Below are positions 49,397-55,999 of a DNA stretch of 64,000 bases, piece after piece; the stretch's first letter is position 1, and every line of letters begins with the position of its first letter. Location of the stretch: the NCBI GenBank assembly GCA_902801295.1, contig CADCHN010000008.1, positions 1 to 64,000 of the forward strand, in the 5' to 3' direction. Origin of the DNA: Oscillospiraceae bacterium. Lineage in GTDB: Bacteria > Bacillota > Clostridia > Oscillospirales > Oscillospiraceae. A model generated the notes under the pieces. That model had not been told where the DNA came from and did no database searches. It saw only the letters and a list, made by a program, of their open reading frames with translations. The translations under genes were made by a program, and so were the position numbers.

Positions 49397-50164
49397 TCAG
49401 TCGTGGGCCATCATTTCCCCAACCGCACCGTCGTACCAAAGGCGATTGAGGTACAGGCCCTGGGGCGGCATGGTCGGCCCGGTCAGGCGCCGGTCGCCCG
49501 CAGCCAGCAGCGCGGGGATATCCCCGGGCTCGAGTTTGCCGTAGGAGGCATAGACCATCGTGCCCACCATGGCCCGGCACATGTTGTACAGAAAGCCGTC
49601 GGCGCAGATGGAGACGGTGATGAGATCCCCGTCCTTCTCCGCGCGGCACCAGTGCACGGTGCGCACGGTGGTTTTCGTCTCGGTGCCGAGAGAGCGGACG
49701 GCGCGGAAATCGTGCGTGCCCTCGAAGGCGCGCGCCGCGGCCTGCATCCGCTCCAGATCCAGGTGCTGCGGATAGAAGCACACCCGGGTTTCCAGGAAGG
49801 GATCGCGGATATTTCTATTGAGTATTTTATAGATATATTCCTTTTTTATGCACGAGCCGATGGCGTTGAAATCCTCCGGCGCCTCGACGGCGTCCGTCAC
49901 GGCGATATCGGCCGGCAGCCGGGAATTGACGGCCAGCGGGAAGCGCTCGATCGGGATCGTGCAGTCCGTGCGGAAATTGGCGCAGTAACGCAGAGCGTGC
50001 ACGCCCGCATCCGTGCGTCCGCAGCCGACGGTTTTCACCGGGTGGCCGCAGATCTTCGTCAGCGCCGTTTCCAGTGTTTCGGCCACGCTGATCTCGGTTT
50101 TCTGCACCTGCCAGCCGTGGTAGTTCGAGCCGTCATAGCTCAGCCGCAAAGCAATGTTTTTCAT
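49397..50164 (-). CDS. truA: tRNA pseudouridine synthase A (second)
   Basis: A 255-residue TruA at its common location after ecfT. LRLSYDGSNYHGWQVQK, the catalytic Asp in GCGRTDAGVHALRYCANF, KKEYIYKILN and DGFLYNMCRAMVGTMV are the family motifs. The start codon overlaps the ecfT stop by 4 bases (ATGA). It is clearly diverged from the copy at 18,137-18,889; in Clostridia, two TruA types often coexist. A diverged copy of its last codons lies downstream at 49,259-49,289. Confidence 0.95.
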   Translation of the reverse strand: MKNIALRLSYDGSNYHGWQVQKTEISVAETLETALTKICGHPVKTVGCGRTDAGVHALRYCANFRTDCTIPIERFPLAVNSRLPADIAVTDAVEAPEDFNAIGSCIKKEYIYKILNRNIRDPFLETRVCFYPQHLDLERMQAAARAFEGTHDFRAVRSLGTETKTTVRTVHWCRAEKDGDLITVSICADGFLYNMCRAMVGTMVYASYGKLEPGDIPALLAAGDRRLTGPTMPPQGLYLNRLWYDGAVGEMMAHD

Positions 50165-50958
50165 AATCCGAAATGTCTCAGCACGATGACCGCCGCGAGG
50201 AAGACCGCGCCCAGCGCGAAGGCGGCGTAGTCGATCCCCTGCAGCTTCATCTGCTTCATGCGCGTGCGGCCGTCGCCGCCGTGGTAGCAGCGGCTCTCCA
50301 TGGCCACGGCCAGCTCGTCGGCGCGCCGGAAGGCAGACACGAACAGCGGCACCAGGATCGGCAGCAGCGCCTTGGCGCGCTGCACGAGGCTGCCGGTCTC
50401 GAAGTCCGCGCCGCGGGCCTTCTGGGCGGACATGATCTTGTCCGTCTCCTCGATCAGCGTGGGGATAAAGCGCAGCGCCATGCTCATCATCAGCGTCATC
50501 TCGTGCACGGGCACGCCGATGCGCTTGAGCGGACTGAGCAGCTTCTCCAGTCCGTCCGTCAGAGCGATGGGGCTGGTGGTATAGGTCAGCAGGAAGGTGC
50601 CGGTGATGAGCAGCACGATGCGCAGAATCATCTGCACCGAGCGGCCGATGCCCTCCCAGGTGATGATCCAGCCCTCGACGATGGGCGTGCCCTGGGTGTA
50701 AAAGATGTTCAGCAGCGCGGTGAGCACGATGATGAACAGCATCGGCTTGAGGCCCTTGAAAATGTTTTTCGGCTTGATGTGCCCCAGCGTCATGGCCAGC
50801 ACGGTGACGAGCGTGACGAGGGCGTAGCTCCACCAGCTCACGGCCTGGAACAGCGCCACGATATACACGATCAGCAGCACGATCTTCGTGCGCGGATCGA
50901 GGCGGTGGACAATGGTATCGCCGGGGAAGAACTGGCCCAGCGTAATATCCTTCAGCAT
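50161..50958 (-). CDS. ecfT: ECF transporter transmembrane component EcfT
   Basis: A 265-residue integral membrane protein with about five helices. The ITLGQFFPGDTIVHRLDPRTK opening and the two coupling-helix Ala-Arg-Gly motifs (ARGADFET and SRCYHGG region) that contact the EcfA subunits are present. It is the shared scaffold that links ATPases to S-components such as FolT. The start overlaps ecfA2 by 7 bases and its stop overlaps truA by 4 bases. Confidence 0.95.
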   Translation of the reverse strand: MLKDITLGQFFPGDTIVHRLDPRTKIVLLIVYIVALFQAVSWWSYALVTLVTVLAMTLGHIKPKNIFKGLKPMLFIIVLTALLNIFYTQGTPIVEGWIITWEGIGRSVQMILRIVLLITGTFLLTYTTSPIALTDGLEKLLSPLKRIGVPVHEMTLMMSMALRFIPTLIEETDKIMSAQKARGADFETGSLVQRAKALLPILVPLFVSAFRRADELAVAMESRCYHGGDGRTRMKQMKLQGIDYAAFALGAVFLAAVIVLRHFGL

Positions 50959-51812
50959 ACGCCCGCCTCCTTTGCTCCGAGGATGGCGGCCTTGAGCTGC
51001 TCGTGGGTGTAGATCGAGCCCTCGAGGCGCACGCCGCGCTGGCGCAGAGCCATCGCGATGGCGGCCGCGTGCGGCACGTTGAGGCCAATGGCGACAAGCT
51101 CCTCCGGCCGGGAGAAAACCTGCTCCGGACTGCCGTCCATCGCCACGTGGCCGTGATCAAAGACGATCAGACGCTCGGCCATGCGGGCCGCGTCGTCCAT
51201 GTTGTGGCTGACGAGGATCACGGTGGAGCCGGTTTTTTCGCGGTAATCGCGGATGTTGTCCAGGATCTGGCGGCAGCCGGCCGGGTCGAGACCCGCGGTG
51301 GGCTCGTCCAGGATCAGCACGCCCGGGCGCATCGCGATCACGCCCGCGATGGCGACGCGGCGCTTCTGTCCGCCGGACAGCTCCAGCGGGGAGCGCTCGA
51401 AGAGGCTCTCCTCCACGCCGACAAAGGCGGCGGCCTCGCGCACGCGCTCGTCGATCTCCTGCTCGCTCAGCCGCTGGTTCTTCGGGCCGAAAGCGATGTC
51501 CTTGTACACGGTCTCCTCAAAAAGCTGGTACTCCGGGTACTGGAACACCAGCCCCACCTGCCCTTTGATATCGCGGCGGGCAAATTTGTCGGCGTTGATA
51601 TCCTTGCCGTCGTACCAGACCTTGCCCGACGTGGGCTGCAGCAGGGCGTTGAGGTGCTGGATAAAGGTGGATTTGCCGGAGCCGGTATGGCCCAGCAGCC
51701 CCACCATCTGTCCCTGTGGGATGGTCAGCGTGATATTTTCTATCGCGGTTTTCTGAAACGGGGTCCCTGCGCTGTAGGTATGCGTCAGGGCCTCAACACG
51801 AAGTTCTGGCAT
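50952..51812 (-). CDS. ecfA2: ECF transporter ATP-binding protein EcfA2
   Basis: A 286-residue ABC ATPase. Walker A is GHTGSGKST, the Q-loop is VGLVFQYPEYQLFEETV, the signature is LSGGQKRRVAI and Walker B is VLILDEPTAGLD, followed by the His switch (VSHNMDD). YPEYQLFEETVYKDIAFGP is typical of the EcfA2 type. It pairs with EcfA1 and EcfT. The gene is 26 bases after ecfA1. Confidence 0.95.
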   Translation of the reverse strand: MPELRVEALTHTYSAGTPFQKTAIENITLTIPQGQMVGLLGHTGSGKSTFIQHLNALLQPTSGKVWYDGKDINADKFARRDIKGQVGLVFQYPEYQLFEETVYKDIAFGPKNQRLSEQEIDERVREAAAFVGVEESLFERSPLELSGGQKRRVAIAGVIAMRPGVLILDEPTAGLDPAGCRQILDNIRDYREKTGSTVILVSHNMDDAARMAERLIVFDHGHVAMDGSPEQVFSRPEELVAIGLNVPHAAAIAMALRQRGVRLEGSIYTHEQLKAAILGAKEAGVC

Positions 51813-51838
51813 AGAACAATCTCCAAGTGAATTCGGAT

Positions 51839-52678
51839 TTATCGGGAATGCTTCAGGCAGGCGGCGATCGCATCGGCGCAGGCCACGGTGCTCAGCGCGT
51901 CGATCGGCAGCTCACATCCCTCGGCGCGCAGCTCGTAGAGGAGCCTTGTCGTCTCCGGCACGGCGAGTCCCTCGCTCTCCATCAGCTCGACCTGCGAAAA
52001 GACCGCGGCCGGGCTTCCGTCGGCCACGATCCGGCCATCCGACATGACGACGAGGCGGTCGGCTCCGACGCACTCGTCCATGTGGTGCGTGATGAGCACC
52101 ACGGTCATGCCGTTTTCGCGGCAGAGGCGCGTGACGGTGGCGATGACCTCCTGCCGGCCCTGGGGGTCGAGCATGGCGGTCGGCTCGTCGAGCACGATGA
52201 TATCCGGCTGCATGGCGATCACGCCCGCGATGGCGACGCGCTGCTTCTGTCCGCCGGACAGCAGGTGCGGCGCATGCTGACGGAATTCAAACATGCCGAC
52301 CTGTTTGAGCGCCGCGTCCACGCGCTGCCGGATCTCCTCCGGCGGCACGCCGAGATTCTCCGGCGCAAAGGCCACGTCGTCCTCGACGACGTTGGCAACG
52401 ATCTGGTTGTCGGGGTTCTGGAACACCATGCCCACCTTGCGCCGTATGTCCAGCAGGCGGCTCTCATCGGCGGTGTCGATGCCGTGCACCAGCACGTGCC
52501 CCTCCGTCGGAGTCAGGATGGCGTTCATGTGCTTGGCGAGCGTCGATTTGCCGGAGCCGTTGTGACCCAGCACGGCCACAAAGCTGCCGGACTCGATCGT
52601 GAGATCGATCCCGCGCAGACTCTCCTTTTCCTCGCCGGGATAGGTAAAATGCACTTGTTGAAATTCAATAACGGTCAT
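51839..52678 (-). CDS. ecfA1: ECF transporter ATP-binding protein EcfA1
   Basis: A 279-residue ABC ATPase. Walker A GHNGSGKST, Q-loop VGMVFQNPDNQIVANVVEDD, signature LSGGQKQRVAI and Walker B IIVLDEPTAMLD are all intact; QNPDNQ is typical of EcfA1. It starts the leftward operon ecfA1-ecfA2-ecfT-truA, the energising module for vitamin S-components such as the FolT encoded at 24.6 kb. The RBS is AGGAAG. No clear promoter was found in the hairpin-rich gap upstream. Confidence 0.95.
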   Translation of the reverse strand: MTVIEFQQVHFTYPGEEKESLRGIDLTIESGSFVAVLGHNGSGKSTLAKHMNAILTPTEGHVLVHGIDTADESRLLDIRRKVGMVFQNPDNQIVANVVEDDVAFAPENLGVPPEEIRQRVDAALKQVGMFEFRQHAPHLLSGGQKQRVAIAGVIAMQPDIIVLDEPTAMLDPQGRQEVIATVTRLCRENGMTVVLITHHMDECVGADRLVVMSDGRIVADGSPAAVFSQVELMESEGLAVPETTRLLYELRAEGCELPIDALSTVACADAIAACLKHSR

Positions 52679-53821: not shown

Positions 53822-53855
53822 GCGGACAATCTTAGGGATTCCTAAGATTGTCCGC
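53822..53855 (-). terminator. Terminator after the binding-lipoprotein gene
   Basis: GCGGACAATCTTAGG (53,822-53,836) and CCTAAGATTGTCCGC (53,841-53,855) form a 15-bp perfect stem with loop GATT. On the minus strand it is followed by six T's. Confidence 0.9.
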
Positions 53856-53871
53856 GGGATGGCGATTCATT

Positions 53872-54681
53872 TTAATGCGAATTGTAGTACATCATCGCGG
53901 TGGAGTCGGTCAGCACGGCGTCGCAGTCGCCGGCGTAGAGCGCCGCGAAGCAGTCGGTCGTGCCGCCGGGGATGCGGCTGATCTGCCCGAGCCGATCCAT
54001 CAGCTTCGGCTGAGTCTCCAGAGCGGCGGTGGCCTCCGGTGTCGTCGGCATGGCCATCGTTTTTCCCTTCAGGCTGCCGGCGCCGCTGATGCGCGAGCCG
54101 TCGCGCGCGACGACGACGATGTCGTTTTCAATGTACGGCCCGTACTGGGTGTACTTGCCGGCGTCCAGCTCCTTCTGATCCAGCGCGACGCCGCCCCAGG
54201 CCACGTCGATATTGCCGGAATAAAGCTCAACATAGACGTTTTCCTTGTCGATGGGGATAACCTGCAGCGTCCAGCCGAGCTTGTCGCAGACAAAGCTCGC
54301 CAGCTCCACGTCAAAGCCCCAGTAGTTGCCGCTCTGCATATATGCCATCGGGAAAGAGTTGATGTCCACACCCAGCAGCAGGGTGTGGGCCTCCGGCGGC
54401 TCCATCTCGGCCAGCACGCCTTCCTTTTTGCCGAAATCGACGGCGCTGCGGCCGAACCACTTGCGGCTGAGCTCCTCGACGCGCCCTTCGGCGTTGAGCT
54501 CCTCAATGGCGGCGACCACATAGTCCCGCAGCGGATCGTCGTTGCGGAAGGCGAGGGAATACTCCTGCTCCACCAGCGTGACCACGCTGCGCACCTTATA
54601 GGATAGATCGTCCCCGCAGGCGGTCAGCGCCAGCAGCATCAGCACCGCCAGCGCCGCGCACAGGATTCGTTTGCTTTTCAT
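53872..54681 (-). CDS. Family-3 solute-binding lipoprotein, apparently circularly permuted
   Basis: A 269-residue lipoprotein (signal LMLLALTAC, Cys22) of the amino-acid-binding SBP family. Residues about 38-77 (EQEYSLAFRNDDPLRDYV, AAIEELNAEGRVEELSRKWFG) look like the very end of an ordinary SBP, where YGIAVRKGD...KWFG closes the protein. Residues about 100-269 then begin like the N-terminus (TLLLGVDINSFPMAY, GFDVELASFVCDKLGW) and continue through AWGGVALDQKELDAGKYTQY to LTDSTAMMYY, which is where the usual C-terminal piece would start. The order of the two pieces is therefore swapped. It lies 19 bases after the M18 peptidase gene; no permease is nearby. Confidence 0.8.
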   Translation of the reverse strand: MKSKRILCAALAVLMLLALTACGDDLSYKVRSVVTLVEQEYSLAFRNDDPLRDYVVAAIEELNAEGRVEELSRKWFGRSAVDFGKKEGVLAEMEPPEAHTLLLGVDINSFPMAYMQSGNYWGFDVELASFVCDKLGWTLQVIPIDKENVYVELYSGNIDVAWGGVALDQKELDAGKYTQYGPYIENDIVVVARDGSRISGAGSLKGKTMAMPTTPEATAALETQPKLMDRLGQISRIPGGTTDCFAALYAGDCDAVLTDSTAMMYYNSH

Positions 54682-54700: not shown

Positions 54701-55999
54701 TCAGAGAGAAATGCTCTCTTCGCTCACCCGGTAACCGCTCTCATAGAAGGCGCGGGCGGCGCGCACGAGATAGTCGGTGTCCTTCGCGCCGGCGGTCTCG
54801 TAGCTCGAGTGCATCGCCAGCTGCGCCAGGCCGATATCCAGCGTCGGCACCGACACGTGCGCCAGGCTGATATGGCCCAGCGTGCCGCCGCCGCGCAGGT
54901 CGGGGCGGTTGGAATAGCGCTGCACGGGCACCTCGGCCGCGCGGCAGAGCTCGGAGAACACGGCGGCGGAGAGGCCGTCGGTCGTGTAGCTCATGGCGGC
55001 GTTGAACTTGATGACGACGCCGCCGTTCATCACGGGGCGCTCGTTGCGGTCGGCATACTCCGGGTGGTTGGGGTGGACGGCGTGGGCGTTGTCGGCCGAA
55101 ACCATAAAGCTGTTGGCCAGCGCGGCGCGGTACTGCGCGTCGCTGCGGCCGAGAGCCGCCCAGGCTCTGCTGAGCATATCGTCCAGGAAGCCGGAATCCG
55201 CGCCCTGGCGAGTGCCGCTGCCGACCTCCTCGTTGTCAAAGACGCAGAGCACGGTGGCCTTTTTCGGCTTGTCCGCCCGCAGAAAACCCTTCATGCAGCC
55301 GAAGGCGCACTGCAGGTCGTCCAGGCGCGGCGCGGAGAGGTACTCGTTCTCGGCGCCCCAAACTGTGCCGGGCGTGCGCGGATAGAGGTTCAGCTCGCGG
55401 CTGACGATGTCCTCCTCCTTCACGCCGAGGGTCTCGGCGATCAGGGCGTTCAGGCCGGTTTTCAGCTCGGCGCTGCCGATCAGGGGGATCATGTCGGAAT
55501 TGACGTTGAAGCTCTTGCCCTCGTTGGCCGAGCGGTCCATGTGGATGGCGAGGTTCGGGATCACGAGCAGGTCGCGGTCGATGTTCACGAGCTTCATCGT
55601 GACGCCGCCCTCTTCCCGCACGGCCACGCGGCCGGCGAGGGACAGCGGACGGTCCAGCCAGGTGCTGCAGAGCATGCCGCCGTATTTTTCCACGGCGAGG
55701 CGGCTGTAAATCCCGAGAGTCTTTTCCTCTCCCTCGGCCTTGACGCGGAAGGCGGGCGAGTCGTCGTGCGCGGCCATGATGAGAAAGCCGTCCGGCTGCT
55801 CCGGCAGGTTCAGGGCGATGACGGCCGAGCCGTTTCGCACGGCGTGATACTTGCCGGGCGCCTGCAGCTGCCAGTTTTCCTCCTCATACAGGCGGGTATA
55901 GCCCGCCCGCTCGAGCTCGGCGGCGATGTTCGCCGCGGCGTGCCAGGCGGTGGGGCTCCTGTCAATGAAGTCCAAAAGTTCACGGTTGATGTTTTCCAT
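54701..55999 (-). CDS. M18-family aminopeptidase
   Basis: A 432-residue metallo-aminopeptidase of the M18 family, which forms large dodecamers and removes N-terminal residues, often acidic or hydrophobic, from peptides. The metal ligands lie in MAAHDDSPAF, FDNEEVGSGT and the late SYETAGAKD. Length fits the family. It is the first gene of a leftward unit with the binding lipoprotein. Divergent from it lies the M3 peptidase, so two peptidase genes share this intergenic region. Confidence 0.92.
   Translation of the reverse strand: MENINRELLDFIDRSPTAWHAAANIAAELERAGYTRLYEEENWQLQAPGKYHAVRNGSAVIALNLPEQPDGFLIMAAHDDSPAFRVKAEGEEKTLGIYSRLAVEKYGGMLCSTWLDRPLSLAGRVAVREEGGVTMKLVNIDRDLLVIPNLAIHMDRSANEGKSFNVNSDMIPLIGSAELKTGLNALIAETLGVKEEDIVSRELNLYPRTPGTVWGAENEYLSAPRLDDLQCAFGCMKGFLRADKPKKATVLCVFDNEEVGSGTRQGADSGFLDDMLSRAWAALGRSDAQYRAALANSFMVSADNAHAVHPNHPEYADRNERPVMNGGVVIKFNAAMSYTTDGLSAAVFSELCRAAEVPVQRYSNRPDLRGGGTLGHISLAHVSVPTLDIGLAQLAMHSSYETAGAKDTDYLVRAARAFYESGYRVSEESISL

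Follow-up and report, generated by a model that had tools for sequence, protein, structure and literature searches.

The gene at positions 53872-54681 of the window analyzed here (the whole stretch of 64,000 nucleotides from an Oscillospiraceae bacterium, contig CADCHN010000008.1) encodes a substrate-binding lipoprotein in which a segment typical of the C-terminus of family 3 substrate-binding proteins (SBPs) stands after the lipid-anchor Cys. This locus raises the questions (i) whether the protein is a genuine circular permutant of the SBP_bac_3 domain, (ii) where its chain ends and its membrane anchor have come to lie, and (iii) what role may be filled by a binding protein with no permease beside it. 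A circular permutation that could change how the protein meets its permease had been proposed from the letters of the window (hereafter the sequence-only reading), and its claims were followed up by profile searches, structure prediction and comparative genomics.

Gene structure and genomic neighborhood

The open reading frame is intact, with an ATG start, 269 amino acids and Cys22 within the lipobox LTAC (residues 19-22). The signal peptide and the lipobox Cys are those of a bacterial lipoprotein, Cys22 being present in all 59 window-clade rows of alignment A1, and lipidation is predicted. The following features were assigned:

53872..54681 (-), gene of the permuted SBP_bac_3 lipoprotein, 269 amino acids (open reading frame, reversed double PF00497 match, rotation test, AlphaFold2 model)
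54616..54681 (-), signal peptide and lipobox LTAC with the lipid-anchor Cys22, residues 1-22 (sequence reading)
54442..54609 (-), moved segment, residues ~25-80, corresponding to the canonical C-terminal part (canonical HMM, PF00497, DSSP)
54388..54441 (-), new linker, residues ~81-98, between the former C- and N-termini (region left uncovered by the two HMM matches)
53875..54387 (-), canonical N-terminal part, lobe 1 then lobe 2, residues ~99-269 (canonical HMM, VIA-align)
53822..53855 (-), 15-bp terminator-like hairpin with a T6 tail directly 3' of the SBP gene
54701..55999 (-), M18 aminopeptidase, 19 bp upstream of the SBP gene on the same strand (Pfam PF02127, E 1e-115)

The M18 aminopeptidase is a probable operon partner of the permuted SBP and is retained in many loci of the same genus. 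Two ATPases and EcfT form an ECF transporter module, which together with TruA behind it occupies window positions 50161-52678 (-), downstream of a methyltransferase; the module lies two genes downstream of the SBP gene and past the strong terminator-like hairpin. The order SBP-methyltransferase-ECF-TruA was also found at loci L071, L073, and L074, which have other genes upstream.

Sequence evidence for a circular permutation

PF00497 matches the protein above the Pfam gathering score (72.2 bits, cut-off 26.4) and does so twice in reversed order, with model positions 82-131 at 54600-54451(-) followed by model positions 2-98 at 54378-54049(-). The canonical arrangement, with the N-terminal part before the C-terminal part in one stretch, is not that of the window protein, which is a permuted relative of SBP_bac_3 and no ordinary member. 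A canonical profile built from eleven canonical SBPs of the same bacterial order matched the native protein with model positions 197-249 at residues 27-79 and model positions 20-190 at residues 94-266. When residues 22-96 were moved to the C-terminus a single continuous match was obtained (model positions ~23-249, ~145 bits); the rotation worked with the cut placed at residues 80-97, and most other cuts gave split matches and lower scores. Shuffling the moved segment within the rotated protein gave 117.3 +/- 1.3 bits with a maximum of 122.7 (n=200), so far below ~145 bits that the match of the moved segment is not due to chance. Rotation and shuffling together therefore demonstrate that the order is rotated and that the part moved is genuinely the C-terminal segment of an SBP.

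The swapped halves described in the sequence-only reading were thus recovered as a reversed double match that becomes continuous after rotation. Its boundaries needed revision: a segment of the C-terminal type does come first, and it extends over residues ~27-80 instead of 38-77, with a linker at about 81-96.

Predicted structure and position of the chain ends

The AlphaFold2 model used here was based on a multiple sequence alignment of 69 homologs with the same order and reached a pLDDT of 95.3 and a pTM of 0.86; a single-sequence model (pLDDT 38.9) was discarded in its favor. The model has two long hinge strands (residues 30-45 and 178-193), and DSSP assigned strand to residues 30-45 and helix to residues 51-64 and 67-76. 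In Foldseek and VIA-align, residues ~96-269 corresponded to the initial ~170 residues of the LAO-, Gln-, and Arg-binding proteins, VIA-align pairing model residues 96-269 with residues 1-172 of the LAO-binding protein, and the best VIA-align superposition had a Z of 13.9 and an rmsd of 4.2 over 178 residues. Both tools are sequential, and the structural match thus covers the N-terminal part and leaves the moved segment outside the superposition. The bilobed model with its two hinge strands has the type II SBP fold; as the protein matches SBP_bac_3 and type II structures, it does not belong to the type I (cluster B) fold. Residues 30-80 are part of the fold, which disposes of the alternative that the N-terminal region stands apart from it. 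In its rotated order the window protein makes up one complete SBP domain, as a natural circular permutant.

The moved segment holds a lobe-2 strand, the second hinge strand, two lobe-1 helices and the KWFG motif, and the canonical N-terminal part stops at the lobe-2 helix preceding the second hinge strand. The chain is opened between positions ~190 and ~195 of the canonical protein, behind the last helix of lobe 2 and ahead of the second hinge strand. Canonical type II SBPs (LAO/HisJ fold) have both termini in lobe 1. Judged from the positions of homologous residues and from the model's DSSP assignment, both termini of the window protein, and hence its lipid anchor, would be in lobe 2, in agreement with the earlier claim that chain ends and anchor had moved to another side of the binding lobes.

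Conservation and distribution of the permuted order

Full-length homologs with the same order were identified in 85 of 91 sampled genomes of the same genus (the homolog of genome G068 spans residues 57-269 only). At the family level 106 genera were sampled, and 23 of them, counting that of the window, had such homologs. Identity ranged from 50-91% within the genus to 27-45% in other genera, with the same order and the same ends, the homologs starting with the signal peptide and stopping at the same final residues. Public records with homologs (L001-L003) came from uncultured Clostridia, Ruminococcaceae, and Oscillospiraceae MAGs. The canonical-profile scan found no window-group relative with a full domain on either side of the permuted unit, contrary to what a truncated tandem protein would predict. 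Since the rotation, the model and the occurrence of the same order in 85 of 91 genus genomes and 22 further genera all agree, the protein is a real circular permutant and no truncated tandem protein. The circular permutation put forward in the sequence-only reading hence stands on the rotation test, the reversed double Pfam match, the alignment-based model and a conserved family of the same order.

Across all loci the canonical-profile scan distinguished three orders, namely canonical, cut at ~193 (types A and B), and cut at ~118-135 (type C); type A denotes the window clade and type B the other permuted SBPs sharing the cut at ~193. Type A forms a single clade (SH-aLRT 97), and its own permutation is therefore old. 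Dozens of residues are invariant across 27 genus rows. Close pairs of permease-less genomes gave dN/dS values of 0.13 (G000/G019) and 0.16 (G006/G021), and distant pairs gave 0.3-0.65 by a simple counting method that is prone to saturation.

Residues of the binding pocket

In the LAO, HisJ, and Gln-binding proteins the amino-acid pocket has established roles for an Arg that binds the alpha-carboxylate of the ligand, for a Ser/Thr and for an Asp that binds the amine. The carboxylate-Arg position holds Arg in 33 of 39 canonical and 35 of 46 type B sequences, and Glu in 38 of 46 sequences of the window's genus. The pocket Ser/Thr and the stacking aromatic are present in all canonical sequences (39/39 each); in the genus the former is replaced by Ala (46/46) and the latter by Ser (40/46), while the amine-binding Asp is kept throughout (46/46). 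The pair of Arg and Ser/Thr that marks the amino-acid pocket of SBP_bac_3 is thus lacking. Many other positions are invariant in the genus. Binding of a standard alpha-amino acid in the canonical pose is therefore unlikely for the window-clade protein, and a different, conserved ligand is likely.

Association with permease genes

A PAAT permease gene was found directly downstream of the SBP at 30 of 37 type B loci, at all six type C loci that were counted and at none of the 59 window-clade loci. With most permuted relatives outside the clade beside a permease and the window clade decoupled from it, the altered meeting with the permease proposed in the sequence-only reading is plausible. Ten of these 59 (two in the same genus, eight in other genera) have a permease within 4 kb, so transport is still possible in part of the clade. 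At L073 and L074, which belong to the same genus, a permease, an ATPase and a racemase-like gene precede the type A SBP, the sole SBP next to them, and in several other genera the type A gene is part of, or close to, a cluster of permease, ATPase and histidine-racemase-like gene. These operons of relatives suggest that type A began as an importer-associated SBP.

The usual set in the genus consists of the M18 aminopeptidase, a Beta-lactamase2 membrane protein and the permuted SBP, with gaps mostly below 45 bp. The Beta-lactamase2 protein (6716-7984 of L215; near the permuted SBP in 24 loci) is a secreted or membrane protein with a basic tail, and its gene immediately precedes that of the SBP in many genomes of the genus. 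A protein combining a kinase-like C-terminal lobe with a C-type-lectin-like domain was seen near the SBP at L003 (1456-3057) and 15 more loci. At L085, L086, and L090, in other genera, a response regulator, a histidine kinase and an HtrA-like protease are encoded divergently from the window-type SBP; this gene set hints at a possible link of the permuted SBP to sensing.

The window's genome (G000; 2.0 Mb, 95.5% complete) was searched as a whole. The genomic profile search returned no other PF00497 match, the permuted SBP being the sole SBP_bac_3 gene found. The sequence-only reading had seen no permease next to the gene, and this absence extends to the genome: no HEQRo/PAAT permease (TIGR01726) was detected above the cut-off genome-wide, the one weak match staying below it (21.6 bits, cut-off 42.2), and the cognate HisM/GlnP-type permease of a PAAT-importer receptor was not found among the matches, although 24 permease domains of the wider family are present. 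TIGR01726 is absent from 10 of 92 genus genomes (G000, G006, G019, G021, G029, G035, G039, G046, G062, and G073), and all ten keep the permuted SBP. Retention is therefore independent of the permease; because the SBP is present in 85 of 91 genomes anyway, the ten cases do not show an association with permease absence. Many assemblies are incomplete, several of the permease-less ones being 67-87% complete, and an assembly gap may explain a missing permease in one genome but is less likely to do so in ten.

Putative function

For the ligand, the partner and the function of the protein we infer the following course. Opening of the chain just before the second hinge strand would have placed both ends in lobe 2, a short linker joining the old ends. 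The permuted SBP would at first have stood beside a polar-amino-acid ABC importer, as the permease, ATPase and histidine-racemase-like genes in the operons of relatives suggest. The pocket of the window clade would then have been altered, with loss of the carboxylate Arg, the hydroxyl residue and the stacking aromatic and retention of the amine-binding Asp, and several species including the window's would have lost the importer genes and kept the permuted SBP. What was kept would be an orphan binding or receptor lipoprotein, anchored through lobe 2, whose small ligand would not be a standard alpha-amino acid. Since it usually shares its operon with the M18 aminopeptidase and the membrane protein with a beta-lactamase-type domain, its role is probably tied to the turnover of peptides outside the cell or in the cell wall. 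As a whole, this account, which leads from a permutant family 3 SBP through an altered pocket and a lost importer to an orphan lobe-2-anchored lipoprotein, appears to us reasonably probable; a binding or a sensing role of such an orphan is most likely for the window protein.

Alternatively, the permuted SBP could still be an ABC-importer receptor; its permease would then either belong to another family and be encoded at a different site in the genome, or be of the PAAT type and have escaped assembly. The permuted relatives outside the window clade directly upstream of a PAAT permease (30/37 and 6/6), the SBPs of L073 and L074 that follow an importer gene set as its only adjoining SBP, and the 24 other permease domains in G000 would fit a receptor. 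We nevertheless regard it as rather unlikely, given that a PAAT permease above the cut-off is missing both from G000 and from nine further genus genomes that keep the SBP, that the canonical pocket residues are lost, and that the usual operon partners in the genus are non-transporters. That the protein is a degenerate SBP remnant devoid of binding function is very improbable: a canonical pocket stripped of its Arg, Ser/Thr and aromatic, and the lack of a cognate permease, would agree with decay, but the low dN/dS in close pairs, the near-universal presence in the genus and the dozens of invariant residues in the 27 genus rows do not.

Recurrent permutation and its probable route of origin

Types A and B share their cut to within a few residues throughout, and cut-193 proteins occur in ten families of the order and in four further families of the class. 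Type C (L064, L065, L177-L180, and, outside the class, L258 and L259) is cut after the 'NAQVVV' strand, which is also in the lobe-2 part; coordinates are 5534-6403 in L064, 2582-3418 in L065, 4175-4990 in L258, and 5097-5969 in L259. Both cut sites would accordingly put the new chain ends, and with them the anchor, in lobe 2. Among the matches listed from a phylum-wide sample, those outside the class were all canonical except for two of type C.

A tree of 87 proteins aligned in one register interleaves canonical and permuted sequences. Its well-supported branches force at least nine changes of the cut-193 order, with the same count in a tree of the N-terminal part only; the tree was inferred in quick search mode with SH-aLRT support only, and the event count depends on it. 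A single clade of all cut-193 proteins was rejected (delta lnL 880, AU p 5e-71). The pair L137/L160, one protein canonical and one permuted and both from one genus, has 78% and 70% identity in the two parts, and further close canonical/permuted pairs are L062/L130, L061/L099, L102/L202, and L064 (type C)/L090. These sister pairs are robust in both protein parts despite the quick tree. Within genus g301 the loci of canonical and permuted genes were not syntenic. The order of SBP_bac_3 has changed repeatedly across Clostridia and a single origin is rejected.

The route probably led from a canonical SBP gene through in-frame tandem duplication to loss of the first N-terminal and the last C-terminal part, which would leave the permuted order. 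L223 (G1334:C6; positions 1312-2895 of the locus) is a single reading frame of 528 amino acids with two near-identical canonical SBP_bac_3 domains in tandem, and such a protein is a likely natural model of the intermediate. L114 (G585; positions 598-2958 of the locus, 787 amino acids), from the same order of bacteria, is a GlnP-like SBD-SBD-permease fusion, and in GlnP itself (6H30) the junction between the tandem domains gives a match to positions 41-273 of the permuted profile. A GlnP-like SBD-permease fusion of 522 amino acids from the same order of bacteria was also noted (L129 in G591; positions 604-2169 of the locus). L171 and L172, which had been taken for intermediates with a duplicated C-terminal part (A2 matched 6-268), are in fact canonical with a long Thr-rich linker, and no half-way gene between tandem and permuted forms was found.

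It is scarcely credible that the window protein is itself a truncated tandem, made of the C-terminal part of one domain and the N-terminal part of the next with no complete domain: tandem SBPs such as L114 and L223 do exist and their junction reads like the permuted order, yet the rotated sequence is one continuous domain, the AlphaFold2 model is a high-confidence single domain, and the same ends are kept at 27-91% identity. Equally hard to sustain is one permutation for all permuted SBP_bac_3 proteins, with canonical relatives as reversions or tree artefacts, since against the near-identical main cut of types A and B stand the AU test, the mixed pairs supported in full and N-part-only trees with at least nine changes each, the closeness of BLAST pairs in both parts (78%/70% within one genus) and the second cut site.

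Comparison with known systems and implications

With the family 3 SBPs (PF00497; GlnH of Escherichia coli, 1WDN; the LAO-binding protein of Salmonella, 1LST; 4OHN of Streptococcus pneumoniae) the window protein shares the family, the bilobed type II fold, the conserved Asp, the hinge strands and the KWFG ending. It differs from them in its rotated order, in the predicted placement of ends and anchor in lobe 2, in the loss of the carboxylate Arg and the Ser/Thr, and in that no PAAT permease was found in its genome. Tandem proteins of the GlnP type (SBD1-SBD2-permease, 6H30), L114, and L223 have a junction that reads C-terminal part then N-terminal part as in the permuted proteins, but each of their domains is complete and canonical, whereas the window protein is exactly one rotated domain. 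Among the 60 best PDB sequence matches none was a permuted chain, the only match in permuted register being the GlnP tandem junction.

The nearest precedent is MglB-2 (Tp0684) of Treponema pallidum, a tethered binding lipoprotein that is circularly permuted in nature and has relatives among Gram-positive bacteria of the gut; it has a type I (cluster B) sugar-binding fold and a cognate ABC transporter and was described as one family (PMC4990184). Natural permutation of a binding lipoprotein is common to both, but compared with MglB-2 ('type Ic') the window protein is of type II and its order change is recurrent, with two cut sites. A literature search, which covered papers outside subscription, returned no report of natural circular permutation in family 3 or type II SBPs. 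Permutation of a binding lipoprotein being already known, what stands out here is that it recurs, that there is a second cut site and that one clade is transporter-free.

Circular permutation in nature is commonly regarded as rare. Here one family has undergone many order changes at two cut sites, even within one genus, with tandem proteins as likely intermediates, which amounts to a natural experiment that bears on the origin of permutations and on the question whether it matters to Venus-flytrap receptors which lobe carries the anchor. Family searches class such proteins with the ordinary amino-acid-binding proteins and so mislead substrate prediction. It is conceivable, although we would not yet favor it, that recurrent permutation acts as a switch moving the anchor from lobe 1 to lobe 2, and that the window family has become a transporter-free receptor that senses or sequesters a new class of ligand beside peptide and cell-wall hydrolases. 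The window clade also presents a binding protein that appears to have outlived its importer.
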